Shown here: positions 9,182 through 23,378 of the stretch, piece by piece
Layout: each line of letters starts with the position of its first letter
How positions within the stretch are numbered: the stretch's first letter is position 1
From: a virus
IMG/VR virus record: IMGVR_UViG_3300024357_000031
Location: 1 to 23,794 of that record
Length of the DNA: 23,794 bases
Strand: one strand, 5' to 3'
Translations under genes and position numbers: made by a program
Notes under the pieces: generated by a model
What the model was told of the DNA's origin: nothing
Seen by the model: only the letters and a program-made list of their open reading frames with translations
Database searches by the model: none

Positions 9182-10330
9182 CTATTCACTTAATTTTTTA
9201 TGTAATACAGAAAACATTTTTGTATCGTTTTCTGATAATTCATTTGCTCTTTTTAATGCTGCCAATTCTCTCTCACTTCTATAAGTATCGTCATCCAATA
9301 TCTTATCAAGCAATTCAAACAATTCTTTTTGGTTATTAAAAAACATACCATTTGGGTCTATTTCTCTATAACAATCGGAATTATGAAATATCATAGGCGT
9401 TCCATTCATCATACAATCCGTTGCCGATACGCTCCATCCATAATTTGTTTGTAATGGTTGTATTCCTACCTTACACAATTGTAGCTTTTCATAATATTCT
9501 TGCTTTGATGCCAATTTTGTTATATCAAACCAAGGTAGCATTTTATCTTTCTTTTGATATTGCGGCACCCACACTTTGAAATCTTGCCTATGTTTTTTGT
9601 AAGCTTCCATATAACCAACAAACTTATTATAATTCTTATATCCAGCCGTTCTATGATTGAATACAATTATGTTATGCTTATTTGGATTTGGTTCTGATAT
9701 GATTTTATCTTTGATTACTCCCAAATTCCAAACACATAACTTTTGGTCTAATTGCTTTAGTACATCATCGCCAAACCATTTTTTTGCTTCTTCAATAACT
9801 TTGTTCTTTTGGTCTTGTGTATTAATAAAGCAAGTATCCATTTGTAGTACACCCAATATTTCATTTGGTAGCCAAAGTTCTTTTGCTTTACCAGGTCTAT
9901 TATCAATTCCGTTACAATGACTCATTTCCCACCAATGACAATACCCAATTATTTTTGTATCAACAGTTTTCTTATATCTACCAACCACATTCCAATCAGG
10001 CAAATGTGAATAGATAATATCATAATCTGTATTCTTTAATACCCCAACTAATTCTTCAGATGGAAAACATCTTTGGTTCATCATATCACCTGGTATAGGA
10101 ACTTCAATTTGCTTAATGTTATCTAACATATTAAGCTTTGCACATACATTACCCTTTGGCATTATCACATACCAAAAATATTCACCATAATTGTTTAAGG
10201 CATTAACGTGATTGAAAAGGACATCCACAAAGGAGTCCTTTTCAATATTTGAGTAGTTAGTAATATTTGGTATTACTAATACTTTTCTTGCGTTATGGTA
10301 GTTTACAGTTGTTTCCCAGAATGTACTCAT
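9182..10330 (-). CDS. GT-B glycosyltransferase (GT4-like)
   Basis: This 382-residue protein has two Rossmann-like halves. The start of the C-terminal half is NIIVFNHRTAGYKNY (about 220-234), with the GT-B basic-residue loop. The donor-site region is YGWSVSATDCMMNGTP (297-312), where the usual E-x7-E is replaced by a Ser/Asp version. An acceptor-side segment CHWWEMSHCNG (131-141) is rich in aromatics and His. The protein is similar in length to T4 DNA glucosyltransferases, but I do not see their specific signatures. It lies tightly between the DUF262-HNH nuclease (1 base upstream) and the polymerase (0 bases). That position makes a DNA-directed role plausible, though protein or lipid acceptors cannot be excluded. 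Confidence 0.75.
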   Translation of the reverse strand: MSTFWETTVNYHNARKVLVIPNITNYSNIEKDSFVDVLFNHVNALNNYGEYFWYVIMPKGNVCAKLNMLDNIKQIEVPIPGDMMNQRCFPSEELVGVLKNTDYDIIYSHLPDWNVVGRYKKTVDTKIIGYCHWWEMSHCNGIDNRPGKAKELWLPNEILGVLQMDTCFINTQDQKNKVIEEAKKWFGDDVLKQLDQKLCVWNLGVIKDKIISEPNPNKHNIIVFNHRTAGYKNYNKFVGYMEAYKKHRQDFKVWVPQYQKKDKMLPWFDITKLASKQEYYEKLQLCKVGIQPLQTNYGWSVSATDCMMNGTPMIFHNSDCYREIDPNGMFFNNQKELFELLDKILDDDTYRSERELAALKRANELSENDTKMFSVLHKKLSE

Positions 10331-10331
10331 A

Positions 10332-11891
10332 TTAGATTGATAACAATTTTCCTATTTTTTTAATTTGCTCAGCATTTAATCTACCAGATTTATTTTGCAA
10401 AGCCTTAACTAAATCATCATAATCCATACCAGATGATTTATCTCCATTACAATCAGAACATAGAATTTGTAAATTATCCTTATCGGTTTTACCATTACCC
10501 TTAACAGGTAAAATATGGTCAGCTTCAATTTCACCTCTAGTAATTTCTTTACCACAACCAGCACATTTATAATCTTGCTCAGCCCAAGCGGTAAGTACAT
10601 CATCCTCATCAAATTTAGTTCTCACTTCACCAATAGTAATTCCAAAAGAATCTAAATTGAATTTGGATTCTATATGTTTGAGTATGAATTCATAGTCATC
10701 AATACGAGTACCACCACCAAATACCTTATTTGCTGAGTATTCTAATGCATCTACATCAGTAGATTCCGTTCCTTTACGAATAACTACTTTTCCGTTTTTG
10801 ATTTCATATCGTTGGTATGGTTTATGTTTTACTTTAATACCACTAACAATCTTGTCAAATTCATTTACTAACTTTTTGTAATCTATTACAATTTCTTTTT
10901 TAGGGTATTGAGATTCTAACCATCTGAAGAACATACAATACTTTAACATTCTGTGTGCTGTCCAATATCCTTTACCTTTTCCTTTTACTCCAATTAATGA
11001 AACAATCATTTCATTAAGTTTCTTTAAGTCAGATTTAACTTTCTTTGAAATAGAAGAATTCAATCCGAATGTTGATAAACCAGCTTCAGTTGAAACTTCA
11101 TCTTGCTTATATAAGTTGTTCCACGCATCATTACTACCTTCTTCCCATGCAGAATCTAAATGGATTTGGTAAGTTAATGCGGTAACAAACGCATCGGTTT
11201 CTCTCTTTATTCCTTTTAATGAAATTAAACTCATTTTACCACCACTATATTGGTTGAATATTCTATATGGAGAACAATCAACAGAACCATAAGCTCTACA
11301 TAGTTTTGCAATTTCTGCATTGTATGCATTTCTACGTTCAGCTGCTGTTACTATATTAAGGTTGTTCAATGTTATGAATAGATTTCTAGCTTCCTTATCA
11401 GTTAAGTTATAATGTCTTACGACAAAGAAGTAATTGTTTTCCGAAAGGAATTTTGCTACAATTGGTTCATCGAACTGAATATCAGTCCAAGTTTTATTAC
11501 CTAAATTATAACTCTTACCTTCAAACTCAAAGGTAAATCCTTTTGGGGTTTTTAATAAACCTTTGAAGAAGTTAAGGATTGTTCTTGTTCGGTGTCCACC
11601 ATCAACAATTTCCCATTTTTTCTTTGCTGGGTTATATCTATGATGGATTGGTTGGATGAATTTACCGGTCAAGAAAGCAACGATTAATGCCTTTTGCCAA
11701 TCATCACCAGTGTAACCTTTAGTACCATCTAATTTGGTATAAGGTCTTTGATATTCAGGAGACTTATCCAAAGTTCCTGCATTTTCTAAAGCCAACATAT
11801 CAGCTCCAGAAATAAGTTGTGGTTCAGTATTAGAATCCACGCGATTTTGTGACAGTGTTTCATTCACTGCTTTCAGTTTTGATGTTTCCAT
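10332..11891 (-). CDS. DUF262 (GmrSD-like) domain protein with C-terminal HNH nuclease
   Basis: I take ATG 11891 as the start (519 residues). A TTG at 11903, preceded by an AGAGAGG purine tract, would add four residues. The N-terminal half is a DUF262/ParB-like domain with a PEYQRPY segment (45-51) and the hallmark IVDGGHRTRT (95-104). It is followed by a helical region with NLNIVTAAERRNAY. The C-terminus is an HNH nuclease: CAGC (443-446), EADHILP (His459) and CSDCN (478-482), with four Zn-binding cysteines. DUF262 fused to a nuclease domain defines GmrS/GmrD-type modification-dependent restriction enzymes, where DUF262 uses NTP. Whether this phage version cuts modified or unmodified DNA cannot be read from sequence. 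It has its own promoter and leads the operon that includes the polymerase. Confidence 0.82.
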   Translation of the reverse strand: METSKLKAVNETLSQNRVDSNTEPQLISGADMLALENAGTLDKSPEYQRPYTKLDGTKGYTGDDWQKALIVAFLTGKFIQPIHHRYNPAKKKWEIVDGGHRTRTILNFFKGLLKTPKGFTFEFEGKSYNLGNKTWTDIQFDEPIVAKFLSENNYFFVVRHYNLTDKEARNLFITLNNLNIVTAAERRNAYNAEIAKLCRAYGSVDCSPYRIFNQYSGGKMSLISLKGIKRETDAFVTALTYQIHLDSAWEEGSNDAWNNLYKQDEVSTEAGLSTFGLNSSISKKVKSDLKKLNEMIVSLIGVKGKGKGYWTAHRMLKYCMFFRWLESQYPKKEIVIDYKKLVNEFDKIVSGIKVKHKPYQRYEIKNGKVVIRKGTESTDVDALEYSANKVFGGGTRIDDYEFILKHIESKFNLDSFGITIGEVRTKFDEDDVLTAWAEQDYKCAGCGKEITRGEIEADHILPVKGNGKTDKDNLQILCSDCNGDKSSGMDYDDLVKALQNKSGRLNAEQIKKIGKLLSI

Positions 11892-11989
11892 CTTTTGATG
11901 CAATTTTATCCTCTCTGCTTGAGTTTTTTATTAAATTTATCCGCCTCTTTTTAGGGGCTACAGCGGTACTTCCCTCTATTTTGTTAAAA

Positions 11990-12020
11990 CAAATATACGA
12001 ATATTTTTCGATATTGCAAA
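11990..12020 (-). promoter_or_regulatory. Bacteroidota-type promoter for DUF262-HNH/GT/polymerase
   Basis: The minus strand has TTTG (12020-12017), a 19-base spacer and TATATTTG (11997-11990). The transcript would carry a leader of about 80-90 bases (to 11892). That leader contains a possible CCGC...GCGG stem around 11941-11966. No known riboswitch is recognised. Confidence 0.8.
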
Positions 12021-12058: not shown

Positions 12059-12859
12059 TTACCAAAAATTGGTAGCACCTTCAGGTGCTTCGTATGTAGT
12101 TAAATGATGAACTATTTCAGTATTGAAAGATGCCGTATCTTTTGGATATGGTTTAATTTCATGCTTCAATCGTTTCATCAAATCCTTTTTTTCTTTTTTA
12201 TCTTGAGCAAGTATCTGAACATATCTATGCTTTGGTGGTTCTTCCCTTCTCCAAAACTCTTTATATCCTTGCTTACCAATTTCTAATTTCAAATGGTCTA
12301 AGTTGCCACTACCCCACATTGAGAATACTGTCCTACTATGAATCCAATCGTATGGGTCTTTTTGTAATGATATACCCCAATTAGGCATCAATGCAATATC
12401 GGTTGATAATCCCTGATAAATCCAATTGGTAGCTTGATAAATTCCGCCTAAATGAGCTTGTCCATTATCAGCATATGAAAGTAATACTTTAATATTCTTA
12501 TCATTTTCTTTTAACCATTTGAAAGATTGTCCTAATGCATAAGATTCAATATTAGAACCATAACCATCATCACAATATAAACGAGTTAATTCTAAAATGT
12601 TATCTTTGGTTAATCCTTCACAAATAGAAGTTGATGCCTTTGCTCCAACAGGAAAACCATAGATTAAACAACCTATAAGTTTATCACCATCAAAAGTACT
12701 AGAATCTTCAGCTTTATAGTAAATTCCAATTGCGTATCTACAAGCTGTCCAAGCATGAGTATAGTGTTTCTTTACAATCATATCTTTAGCGATACTCTTT
12801 GCTATTGGAGCAACATATACTTTAGATACATCACAATATTGTTTACCTTCTACTTTCAT
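12059..12859 (-). CDS. mom: Mom-like DNA adenine modification protein (second copy)
   Basis: I start at ATG 12859, giving 266 residues. An upstream TTG at 12868 is unlikely because the other copy also begins MKVEGKQYCD. It shares with the phage Mu Mom family: a KKHYTHAW segment (His32), YAIGIYY, a central LELTRLYCDDG (89-99), SNIESYALGQSFKWLK, and the signature LSYADNGQAHLGGIYQATNWIYQG (127-150), followed by a PPKHRYV basic segment. Mu Mom has a GNAT-like fold and converts adenine to N6-(methylcarbamoyl)adenine, which protects DNA from restriction. The gene follows the Lys-rich protein by 2 bases and is driven by the promoter at 13146-13177. The chemistry in this phage is inferred. Confidence 0.75.
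   Translation of the reverse strand: MKVEGKQYCDVSKVYVAPIAKSIAKDMIVKKHYTHAWTACRYAIGIYYKAEDSSTFDGDKLIGCLIYGFPVGAKASTSICEGLTKDNILELTRLYCDDGYGSNIESYALGQSFKWLKENDKNIKVLLSYADNGQAHLGGIYQATNWIYQGLSTDIALMPNWGISLQKDPYDWIHSRTVFSMWGSGNLDHLKLEIGKQGYKEFWRREEPPKHRYVQILAQDKKEKKDLMKRLKHEIKPYPKDTASFNTEIVHHLTTYEAPEGATNFW
12060..12089 (-). terminator. Tandem hairpins at the end of the second Mom-like gene, possible terminator
   Basis: On the minus strand AGCACC-TGAA-GGTGCT (12089-12074) is followed by TACCAATTTTTGGTA (12074-12060), a second palindrome containing a T5 run. Both lie in the last codons of the gene. This could end the Mom unit before the promoter at 11990-12020. The T-tract is short, so the call is tentative. 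Confidence 0.35.
12831..12859 (-). repeat. Direct repeat, copy 1: 5' end of second Mom-like gene
   Basis: These 29 bases, the start codon plus codons 2-9 and part of codon 10, are identical to 13904-13932. The rest of the two genes has diverged much more, so either a recent exchange or selection on the initiation region has kept them identical. Confidence 0.9.
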
Positions 12860-12861
12860 TA

Positions 12862-13131
12862 TTACCAATACTTTTTACCATCTTTTTTAGCATCCTTCTT
12901 AGCATCAGCTGCTTTTTCTAAGATTGATTTTTTCTTTTCTAACTTTGCTTCCTTTTGCTGCTTCTTCATCATTTTATCGTAACCTGCTGGAAATTTGTTT
13001 ATGACTTCTATTGGTCCATTTGGAAATTTCTTTAAATCATATTTCCAAATAGATTCAGTTCCATCATCATCTTTATAGGTTACTTCAAACTTTACAGGTT
13101 TATCAGGAGTTTTTTCAGGCCACCTTCCCAT
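12862..13131 (-). CDS. Small protein with Lys-rich C-terminal tail
   Basis: This 89-residue protein starts at ATG 13131. The first half (KFEVTYKDDDGTESIWKYDL, then FPNGPIEVINKFPAGY) looks like a small beta-rich unit. Residues from about 54 onward are dominated by Lys with Ala, Asp, Glu and Gln (KKQQKEAKLEKKKS, AKKDAKKDGKKYW), which would form a charged helix or disordered nucleic-acid-binding tail. I recognise no named family. It is first in the unit driven by the promoter at 13146-13177 and ends 2 bases before the second Mom-like gene, so a DNA-binding or accessory role for that protein is possible but unproven. Confidence 0.65.
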   Translation of the reverse strand: MGRWPEKTPDKPVKFEVTYKDDDGTESIWKYDLKKFPNGPIEVINKFPAGYDKMMKKQQKEAKLEKKKSILEKAADAKKDAKKDGKKYW

Positions 13132-13145
13132 ATATTAATTTTATA

Positions 13146-13177
13146 CAAATATACGAAATTATTTTGAATCTACCAAA
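13146..13177 (-). promoter_or_regulatory. Bacteroidota-type promoter for Lys-rich protein/second Mom-like gene
   Basis: The minus strand has TTTG (13177-13174), 20 bases and TATATTTG (13153-13146), a perfect match. The -33 box lies inside the last codons of the first Mom-like gene (stop at 13159). Only 14 bases separate the -7 element from ATG 13131, giving a very short leader. Confidence 0.85.
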
Positions 13178-13932
13178 TCTATCGGGTCCATCTTATATAC
13201 CTCATCAATAATATCCAACTCTACTTTTGGATAGGGTAAGACCTCATGTTTAAGCGATTTTAAGAGTGCTTTTTTCTCCTTTTTATCTTTGGTTAGAATA
13301 TACACATATCGGTGCTTACGTGGTTCTCTTTTAATCCAGAATGGGCTTGTAACCATTGTCTGAATTATCTTCGGGTCATTCGTTCCGTACTTTACATAAG
13401 AAGTCCGAGAATGATGCCATTCATCATCTTCACTCCATTTGAAAGACCAACTATCTGACCATCTGATTTTATTACCCTGATATATCCAATTCGTAGCTTG
13501 ATATACCGTTCCTAAGTGCCCAGCGTTTGGGTCTGAATAAGATATTAGGGCTTTGATACGAGGTACATTAGTTCTTAACCACTCGAAAGTTTGTCCAACA
13601 AACCAACTCTCAATGTTACTACCATATCCATCGAATACGAATAGTCTTGTCAATTCTAATACACCATCTCTAGGAAGTAATTCGGAAATTGATGCGCCGG
13701 CATTTCTACCAACCGGGTCACCATAACAGGCTACTCCAACTAATTGTTCATTCACTCCACTAAAGAAAGAATGTTCTTCATCAGAAAGATAAAATAAGCC
13801 TATGGCATAGGATACCTTTGTCCATATCCCACTGTAATGGTTATTGACAATAATATCCTTTGCAATACTTTTATTTATTTCTCTTATTGAGAATTTAGAT
13901 ATGTCACAATATTGTTTACCTTCTACTTTCAT
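13159..13932 (-). CDS. mom: Mom-like DNA adenine modification protein (first copy)
   Basis: This 257-residue protein has the Mom-family landmarks: NNHYSG (30-35), YAIGLFYL, LVGVACYGDPVGR, LELTRLFVFDG (92-102), SNIESWFVGQTFEWLR (105-120), the signature SYSDPNAGHLGTVYQATNWI (131-150) then YQG, and PRKHRYVYIL (204-213). Its N-terminus nearly equals that of the second copy (MKVEGKQYCD), while the body is clearly diverged, so the two are old paralogues. Mu Mom adds a methylcarbamoyl group to adenine N6 and blocks many restriction enzymes. The ATG shares bases with the TGA of the HTH gene (ATGA overlap, 13929-13932), implying translational coupling. Which adenines are targeted cannot be seen. Confidence 0.75.
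   Translation of the reverse strand: MKVEGKQYCDISKFSIREINKSIAKDIIVNNHYSGIWTKVSYAIGLFYLSDEEHSFFSGVNEQLVGVACYGDPVGRNAGASISELLPRDGVLELTRLFVFDGYGSNIESWFVGQTFEWLRTNVPRIKALISYSDPNAGHLGTVYQATNWIYQGNKIRWSDSWSFKWSEDDEWHHSRTSYVKYGTNDPKIIQTMVTSPFWIKREPRKHRYVYILTKDKKEKKALLKSLKHEVLPYPKVELDIIDEVYKMDPIDLVDSK
13904..13932 (-). repeat. Direct repeat, copy 2: 5' end of first Mom-like gene
   Basis: These 29 bases are identical to 12831-12859, covering the start codon and first codons of both Mom-like genes. Confidence 0.9.
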
Positions 13933-14132
13933 AAGCTACCAGACCAAAATTCATTTAGATGCGCCCAAGTTTTTCTTTGGACAATCTTTATTACATTGGC
14001 TGGGGAAACTTTATTGTTCCTTGCAATCACCTTTACGTTTCGGTGACCCATATTCCATAATCTTCTGATGTTTAGAACTTGCTCATCTGTAAGTTTAGCT
14101 GCAGGATGAGTTTGTCCTCTTAAAATAGCCAT
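13929..14132 (-). CDS. Small HTH protein coupled to the first Mom-like gene
   Basis: This 67-residue protein starts at ATG 14132. HPAAKLTDEQVLNIRRLW (9-26), then IARNNKVSPANVIKIVQRKTW (36-56), reads as a helix-turn-helix of the type found at the C-terminus of phage HNH homing endonucleases and in small stand-alone relatives (AKLTxEQVxxIR ... VSxxxVxxIxxxKTW). No HNH catalytic motif is present, so it is only a DNA-binding module. Its TGA overlaps the ATG of the Mom-like gene. In phage Mu the small Com protein is encoded just before Mom in an overlapping arrangement and activates mom translation. A similar partner role here is inferred, since Com is a zinc-finger protein and this is not. Alternatively it is a remnant of a homing endonuclease. 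Confidence 0.65.
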   Translation of the reverse strand: MAILRGQTHPAAKLTDEQVLNIRRLWNMGHRNVKVIARNNKVSPANVIKIVQRKTWAHLNEFWSGSL

Positions 14133-14152: not shown

Positions 14153-14422
14153 TTATTTTAAACCTTCGTTAATAGCATTTGTATATGCAATTTTAGAAGA
14201 AAGGCCAGTAAATCTTTCTATTAACTGTCCATCTTTTTCAATAATTACAACTGGAATTGATGTAATATTATATTGTTGAGTTTCTTCTGGGGAATTATCA
14301 ACATTATATTCCATATATGTTATTTTTCCTTCAAACTCTTTTACGATACTCTCTAATACAGGCTTTAGTGCTCTACAAGGACCACACCATTCTGCTCCAA
14401 ATTTTTTAACTACTACGCTCAT
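14153..14422 (-). CDS. trxA: Thioredoxin
   Basis: This 89-residue thioredoxin fold has the classical active site AEWCGPCRALKP (10-21), the conserved Asp in YNVDNSPE (39-46) and the cis-proline in NITSIPVVII (52-61). It is shorter than E. coli thioredoxin (109 residues), lacking the N-terminal strand and helix, like other phage thioredoxins or glutaredoxin-sized forms. It probably reduces the disulfide of the class II ribonucleotide reductase two genes upstream. Its ATG lies 17 bases inside the DUF5522-like gene, so the three genes are tightly linked. Confidence 0.92.
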   Translation of the reverse strand: MSVVVKKFGAEWCGPCRALKPVLESIVKEFEGKITYMEYNVDNSPEETQQYNITSIPVVIIEKDGQLIERFTGLSSKIAYTNAINEGLK

Positions 14423-21503: not shown

Positions 21504-21527
21504 AAAAAAGGGGAATTAATTTTCCCC
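21504..21527 (-). terminator. Intrinsic terminator after the ADP-ribosyltransferase gene
   Basis: The minus strand reads GGGGAA-AATTAA-TTCCCC then TTTTTTA. The stem is 21527-21522 with 21515-21510, and the hairpin includes the stop codon at 21516-21518. It separates this gene from the SSB promoters. Confidence 0.8.
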
Positions 21528-23378
21528 TTCTTTTGTGTATAATAATGATGTTCTATTTGGATATTGTAGATGCTTCTTTAAAATATCAGTTTCATTGTCA
21601 TCTATAAACTCTCTTAGTTTAATTTCGTTTTTAGTACCAATTTGTTCTAATGTTATAATAGTAAAATTACGCCCGCCTTCCATTTTTTTAGTTTCTGTTT
21701 TCACAACTTTGTATTTATTATTAGATGGTAAAAGTACTTCATGTTGACCAGACCAACTTCCAAAATCATCACCAACCATACTATTTTTATTTTTAGCAGA
21801 TACATTATCCACATTTGCATTCATACAAAATCCATTGAATGTATTTTTTGAATTTACCACTTTTATTATTATAGATTGGTTATTTGATTTATTTACCAAT
21901 GCGTTTGCGTTACCAACATTATTAGCAAATTCAGTAGCTGTTGTTACATCAAATGAAAATGAAGATATTGGTAAATCAATAGTACTACCTTCTTTAAAAG
22001 ATTTCATAAATTTAGAATAATCAGAAGAATTCATAGCCATACCTCTATACAACGCATTTGTATGAACTGCAGGTGGTGGGTCTGATTTTAACATTTCATC
22101 AATTCTATTTAATGCATCTTTATTTATCATTGATTGATATGAGAACATATCATTTATATAATTCTTATTTTTCTTAGCTTGCGCTTTAACCCATTTAGCT
22201 TGATTTTTATCATTAGCTTGTGAAATATCTACAAAAGAATTATCCTTATCATCACCCTTTTCTTTTTTAATAAAATTACGAAGTCCACCATCTACAGTTG
22301 TTGGATTTTCTAATTCACTCTGCATTGTTTTATTCCAATCATCATCCGAAAGGTTTTTGTATTTTAATGGATATGCTAATTGTAAACTTGATAATTCATC
22401 CATACTATCAAGTTCATTATCCCTTCCAAAAAGAATAGTATTTCCTAATCTAGACAATACAAACTCTGTTAAATTTTTAAAACCCCACTCTTTTAAATCT
22501 TCCTCATTTGGAGTAAATCCAGATATATCAAGAAACATTTCAGGATGTGATAATACTCTGTTTACATCTATCTTAAATTTGTTTGCCACCTTTGCTACTT
22601 GTGCCGGAGTAAATGTTTCACTACCTATAATTTTATGCTTTATTTTTGTAAGTGCATTTGTTATATCTTTAGTAGTATCTTTATTATATAATTTGGTTTT
22701 ATCCGTTTCAGCTTTAGCTACTTTTTTATCTGCTTGCGTTTGAATTTCATTCGGGTCAATTCCTTTCTTAATTACATTTGCTTGTTTGTTTGAACTATCG
22801 GAATATACTTTGTAATAATAATCATCTGGAGTAACTCCATCAGGTGCATATTGTTTTGTTTCTAAATCTGATAAAATTAAATTAGCCATTAATTCTGATA
22901 CAGATTGCTTTCTACCATCTTTATCTTTTATTTTAGTAGTTGCTCCTAATTTATTTATAAGATTTAAATCGATACCATATTCGTCAGCAGTTGTTTTTAT
23001 TATTTCTGGAGTTATATTTGATTGATAGAATCTAACATCCCTTACAATCTTACCATTTTTATTTTTTCTACTAAGAGTAATTAATGTATCACCATATTCT
23101 GCAGTACTGATTGCTTTTGCCGTTTCATCCGATGGTTCATTTTTTTTATCAATTGTACCACCTCTTTCCTTTTCGTAATCACCTTTAAATAAGTCAGAGG
23201 ATTTTGGCGTTTCTACATCCTTTCCCTTTATTTGAGGGTTTTCATGTGTACCATTTTTAACTGCTGTATCTAAATTATCTTTGGTATCAAAATATACCAA
23301 TTTACCCGTTTTTTTGGATATTGCAGAAAAATCCGTTGTTTTTGGTTTAGCTTCAAATAATTCCCTAAGTAAAATCAT
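21516..23378 (-). CDS. Large protein with C-terminal mono-ADP-ribosyltransferase domain, possibly virion-packaged
   Basis: This 620-residue protein has a C-terminal domain (about 435-580) with the R-S-E layout of ADP-ribosyltransferases: LYRGM (Arg445), ISSFSFD (Ser473, Ser475; the S-T-S position) and GQHEVLLP (Gln545, Glu547). The pair reads Q-x-E rather than E-x-E. In known toxins E-x-E enzymes modify Arg, while Q-x-E enzymes such as C3 modify Asn or other residues. The N-terminus MILLRELFEA resembles that of T4 Alt and contains L-F-E before Ala, fitting the T4 prohead protease site L/I-x-E. Residues 20-400 are Lys/Asp/Asn-rich and unrecognised. A capsid-packaged, injected toxin-like enzyme acting on host proteins early in infection, like Alt, is inferred. 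It is flanked by terminators on both sides. Confidence 0.72.
   Translation of the reverse strand: MILLRELFEAKPKTTDFSAISKKTGKLVYFDTKDNLDTAVKNGTHENPQIKGKDVETPKSSDLFKGDYEKERGGTIDKKNEPSDETAKAISTAEYGDTLITLSRKNKNGKIVRDVRFYQSNITPEIIKTTADEYGIDLNLINKLGATTKIKDKDGRKQSVSELMANLILSDLETKQYAPDGVTPDDYYYKVYSDSSNKQANVIKKGIDPNEIQTQADKKVAKAETDKTKLYNKDTTKDITNALTKIKHKIIGSETFTPAQVAKVANKFKIDVNRVLSHPEMFLDISGFTPNEEDLKEWGFKNLTEFVLSRLGNTILFGRDNELDSMDELSSLQLAYPLKYKNLSDDDWNKTMQSELENPTTVDGGLRNFIKKEKGDDKDNSFVDISQANDKNQAKWVKAQAKKNKNYINDMFSYQSMINKDALNRIDEMLKSDPPPAVHTNALYRGMAMNSSDYSKFMKSFKEGSTIDLPISSFSFDVTTATEFANNVGNANALVNKSNNQSIIIKVVNSKNTFNGFCMNANVDNVSAKNKNSMVGDDFGSWSGQHEVLLPSNNKYKVVKTETKKMEGGRNFTIITLEQIGTKNEIKLREFIDDNETDILKKHLQYPNRTSLLYTKEGEN

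Follow-up and report, generated by a model that had tools for sequence, protein, structure and literature searches.

The window analysed here is the entire 23,794-base linear virus record IMGVR_UViG_3300024357_000031 of IMG/VR. It carries two Mom-family GNAT genes, momA and momB, each with a small gene directly upstream (Table 1). The first-pass annotation had placed two Mom-like ORFs of 257 and 266 residues and two small ORFs here, and all four lie where it put them, on the minus strand. The stop of the HTH leader gene overlaps the start of momA by 4 nt, and 2 nt separate the stop of the Lys-rich ORF from the start of momB, whose coordinates are counted from an ATG; a TTG start at 12868 would make it 269 aa long. 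In sequence the HTH leader is similar to the C-terminal portion of HNH endonucleases from phages (phrog_20467).

Table 1. Genes and promoter elements of the Mom cassette and its borders, in window coordinates.
Feature	Position	Strand	Basis
momA, Mom-family GNAT, 257 aa, S109 = Mu S124	13159..13932	-	Pfam, PHROG 1384, 8bv8
momB, Mom-family GNAT, 266 aa, S106 = Mu S124	12059..12859	-	Pfam, PHROG 1384, 8bv8
HTH leader gene, 67 aa	13929..14132	-	phrog_20467, E 4e-7
Lys-rich ORF, 89 aa, between momA and momB	12862..13131	-	no curated Pfam match
Thioredoxin gene, left border of cassette, conserved	14153..14422	-	Pfam Thioredoxin, 66 bits; synteny
DUF262 (GmrSD_N)-HNH nuclease gene, in variable slot	10332..11903	-	Pfam
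GTATATTTG, Bacteroidota-type -7 element for Lys-rich gene and momB	13146..13154	-	motif search
GTATATTTG upstream of DUF262-HNH gene	11990..11998	-	motif search

PHROG matches elsewhere in the window comprised a DNA polymerase, clamp, clamp loader, replicative helicase, UvsX and SSB, a T4-type replication module, and the closest annotated relative of the polymerase was that of Microcystis phage Mel-JY01 (52.6%). Both results bear out the earlier description of the source as a T4-like phage. As such a module sits here in a linear record of this length, the window is probably a piece of a larger phage. Scanning the window for Rfam families and tRNAs gave no matches. An ADP-ribosyltransferase pattern of the R-S-E type (YRG, SSFSFD, SGQHEVLL), reminiscent of T4 Alt, can be made out by eye in the C-terminal part of a 620-aa protein encoded at 21516-23378, which matched nothing in Pfam or PHROG.

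Both Mom proteins matched the Pfam Mom profile PF25680 far above its cut-off of 27.1 bits (150.3 bits for momA, 152 bits for momB), over profile positions 2-202 of 202, and both matched PHROG 1384. By sequence, the Mu Mom structure 8bv8 was the sole solved relative of momA (E 7.5e-11) and clearly the best solved structure for momB. Searches of the PDB with AlphaFold models (pLDDT 84.7 for momA; 76.2 for momB, a weaker model with weak stretches) also ranked 8bv8 first, with E 1e-12 and TM 0.76 to the target for momA and E 5e-10 for momB, in both cases with ordinary GNAT acetyltransferases far behind. The profile search and structure prediction proposed in the first-pass annotation as checks thus placed both proteins in the Mom family, not in a non-Mom one, with a GNAT fold nearest to Mu Mom. 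We regard this membership as very nearly certain.

The catalytic features of Mu Mom were retained in both sets of orthologues, which keep H58, Y59, E108, L109, R111, D116, N121, E123, S124, S146, Y159, N163 and H183 (Mu numbering, here and below). S124, whose replacement by Ala gave the Mu mutant described as inactive in 8bv8, was invariant in all 117 full-length orthologues (69 momA and 48 momB), and H58, R111, Y159, N163 and H183 were invariant in the same sets. D149 was found in 69/69 momA and 43/48 momB. It is replaced by Asn in a momB sublineage (L135, L141, L146, L150 and L155), of which L146 has lost momA.

The two proteins of the window share 51% identity over 243 aa (E 7e-81), and both contain the signature SY[SA]D....HLG..YQATNWIYQG that had been read from the sequence at the outset. 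Across the wider family the two copies are 40-50% identical. When 65 distinct pairs from environmental phage contigs were compared, the upstream copies formed one clade and the downstream copies another, with the sole exception of L156, whose second Mom is of a distant type. Support values (SH-aLRT/UFBoot), taken from an IQ-TREE analysis of a subset of the 122 sequences, were 91/98 for the A core and 84/94 for the B core; the deepest nodes are not resolved by this tree, which does not place the duplication exactly relative to some single-copy lineages. The divergences of A and B were correlated over the 65 pairs (Mantel r 0.76, 0/2000 permutations), as expected of genes inherited together, and median dN/dS values of 0.04-0.14 indicated purifying selection on both. 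More than 20 alignment columns have one residue fixed in A and another in B, some of them beside conserved residues (S/T60, D/F87, F/Y113, F/D115 and S/A148). Gene conversion does not explain the near-identical N-termini remarked on earlier: A and B from one genome are no more identical than A and B from different genomes, which rules out conversion and a recent duplication alike, and synonymous conservation in the N-terminal region is also unremarkable. On these comparisons the duplication is ancient, not recent.

Relatives of the locus were collected by two overlapping IMG/VR scans queried with momA and momB; nearly all of the records are incomplete, and several loci come from the same contig. 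A search of GTDB genomes found no relatives. Two Moms were present in 139 of the 162 loci, a figure favoured towards two-copy loci by the choice of queries. With few exceptions the two stood in tandem and in one constant order; a contig end cuts most of the remaining loci. The conserved arrangement is thioredoxin-HTH-momA-momB-(variable slot)-glycosyltransferase-polymerase, so that the core cassette, from thioredoxin to momB, adjoins the polymerase of T4-like phages. Nearly all relatives have an HTH orthologue ahead of momA, and where momA has been lost this gene is still found before momB. The Lys-rich gene, in contrast, is restricted to the subclade of the window. The first-pass annotation had given each Mom its own preceding nucleic-acid-binding gene, and this is half right: the HTH gene accompanies the cassette throughout, but the Lys-rich one was inserted in this clade only. 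There is no promoter between momA and momB in 46 loci, where the two frames overlap at stop and start by about 1-19 nt.

The motif GTATATTTG occurs five times in the window, always intergenic and on the coding strand, a number reached in none of 100 shuffles. Preceded by TTTG at about -33, it matches the Bacteroidota promoter consensus. For the copy at 13146-13154 this TTTG lies inside the 3' end of momA. Its position between momA and the Lys-rich gene supports, for the clade of the window, the earlier proposal of separate promoter input: a promoter was present in all 77 loci with a Lys-rich gene and absent from the 46 loci with overlapping frames. Three elements of the window are later insertions specific to clades: the Lys-rich gene, the promoter that goes with it, and the DUF262-HNH gene. 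The promoters, together with a nearest annotated Mom from a Polaribacter phage, suggest that the hosts of this large T4-like lineage are probably Bacteroidota. Mel-JY01 (L166, PP395634.1) has a few TTTG-spaced GTATATTTG promoter-like sites, which are unexpected in a cyanophage, and the host given for it may merit checking.

The slot between momB and the glycosyltransferase gene is hypervariable, with 53 distinct contexts and about 34 different proteins of 100-680 aa. Most of these had no match in Pfam or PHROG; a few loci have DUF262 proteins, and some have ParB-like (weak) or GIY-YIG-like (by eye) proteins. In the window the slot holds the DUF262-HNH protein (HNH, 42.2 bits; GmrSD_N, 33.3 bits against a cut-off of 33.2). 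With a clear HNH match but an N-terminal DUF262 match right at the cut-off, this protein is a borderline candidate for a GmrSD type IV restriction enzyme. As one of about 34 proteins found there, it is ruled out as a fixed restriction partner of the cassette. The conserved gene at 9182-10330 in the window, which has the Mom cassette on one side and the DNA polymerase on the other, is glycosyltransferase-like, with a weak Glycos_transf_1 match, and could possibly have a role in DNA glycosylation.

We searched 46 relatives in full for Mom and found two copies in most. momB was the only copy in G011 (266 kb) and G026 (238 kb) and in two fragments, G013 and G014; G016 had momB and a distant Mom but no momA. 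On several occasions momA has been lost and momB retained. G011 (L123, 2673-4656) still has the HTH gene and momB, but in place of momA there lie an ORF that looks HNH-like by eye and a gene for an N6_N4 DNA methyltransferase (122 bits), as if one DNA modifier had replaced another. Of the observations made here this argues most strongly that momA acts on DNA, although it comes from one case, in an assembly that is unverified. Among 21 large records, N6_N4 methyltransferases exceeded the cut-off twice in G011 and, as partial matches, in two of the 20 others; D12 methyltransferases were absent from all 21, and the momB-only G026 had no N6_N4 methyltransferase. Three Moms in tandem were seen in L235, L241, L254 (record G029) and L239 (record G033). 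In all four the middle copy is very diverged but keeps the conserved Ser, and in the first three it lies between A and B. Some further relatives with three Moms have the cassette and a distant Mom.

Why would a phage keep two Moms? Long divergence and co-retention in the same order suggest different jobs for them, and taken with the fixed differences they make a division of function likely, without indicating of what kind. We infer that both enzymes modify adenine in phage DNA by methylcarbamoylation, as Mu Mom does with the use of acetyl-CoA and iron; that their target is DNA adenine is quite likely. Such a modification would shield the phage DNA from host nucleases, the second copy may be kept through a different specificity, most simply for different sequence contexts or strands, and the HTH protein may regulate or target the cassette. 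Our preferred reading, to which we give about an even chance, is that momA and momB, Mom-family GNATs that go back to an ancient duplication, have separate functions and divide specificity between them. Counting against it, momA is dispensable in several lineages, one momB sublineage has D149N, and the methyltransferase replacement is one case that G026 does not repeat. The fixed A/B differences, moreover, could instead reflect stability or partner contacts, not target choice. A more tentative proposal is that these phages combine two, and in some relatives three, Moms for different adenine modifications or contexts with a dedicated HTH partner by which the enzymes are regulated or targeted.

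The overlapping frames would also suit a heteromeric Mom of which momA and momB are subunits, balanced by translational coupling. The fixed order and correlated divergence of the two genes agree with this, as do the two chains in the Mu Mom crystal structure. Such an enzyme is nevertheless unlikely, since momB occurs without momA in G011, G013/G014, G016 and G026, the clade of the window runs momB from its own promoter, and the active-site residues are conserved in both proteins, which a non-catalytic subunit would not need. Somewhat less probable is a difference in chemistry, with one Mom making the methylcarbamoyl adenine of Mu and the other adding another acyl group or acting on another base. 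Here the fixed differences that adjoin conserved residues (S/A148 by D149, D/F87, F/D115) and the Asn of the momB sublineage are suggestive, but differences near the active site can equally set DNA context, and the catalytic core is unchanged from Mu through both copies. If both copies instead carried out the same reaction in the same contexts, providing more enzyme or two times of expression, the separate momB promoter in the clade of the window would be accounted for; we consider this improbable given an ancient split, 40-50% identity and more than 20 differently fixed columns, and given that many other loci have one overlapping expression unit. Finally, GNAT folds are versatile and the DNA activity here is predicted, yet action of one or both proteins on RNA or protein is highly improbable with Mu Mom the best match well ahead of other GNATs, the inactivating Ser conserved, and a DNA methyltransferase at the momA position in G011.

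Mom is among the oddest of DNA modifiers, and its choice of sites is poorly understood. An ancient, diverged pair with a common catalytic core and known fixed differences offers a direct route to mapping site choice or chemistry, and the keeping of two, occasionally three, Moms by some phages points to layered genome protection.

Each of three different Mom queries matched a single place in every record that it found, over 254 to 298 annotated phage records, and there was no two-Mom phage among the annotated or cultured phage records searched. Nor did we find a two-Mom system in the literature searched, many subscription papers being beyond reach, in agreement with the first-pass statement that no described one was known. 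What that literature describes is Mu Mom, Mom-like genes that occur singly, and, in jumbo phages, fusions of Mom to an endonuclease domain, with unmodified DNA as the proposed target of the nucleases (Iyer et al. 2021, PMC7824862). The present phages share with these the presence of Mom in a large phage, but their Moms are stand-alone and duplicated, and the variable slot beside them holds a nuclease only now and then.

The closest annotated phage Mom, gp53 of Polaribacter phage P12002L (42-45% identical), comes from a phage with a Bacteroidota host. It is a single Mom that adjoins a D12 adenine methyltransferase and lacks a leader of the HTH family of the cassette. Genes 64-63 of Microbacterium phage BarnCat (HTH-Mom) resemble the cassette in having a small HTH gene that overlaps the Mom start, but there is one Mom only and the HTH protein does not match the family found here. 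A general HTH-Mom partnership was ruled out, as the BarnCat HTH protein and a small Listeria ORF fall outside this family and further phages have unrelated Mom neighbours.

In Mu, mom is preceded by com, the gene for a zinc-finger translational activator. Neither the HTH nor the Lys-rich ORF translation contains a cysteine, and the HTH leader, being HTH-like and cysteine-free, is not a Com-type zinc finger. Even so, in the Mu com-mom pair as in the cassette, a small gene lies upstream of mom and runs up to or into its start, and Mu Mom (gp55) shares with momA and momB the Mom profile, the predicted fold, the inactivating Ser and other conserved residues. Where Mu has one Mom, the cassette described here has two diverged ones, set among T4-like replication genes.
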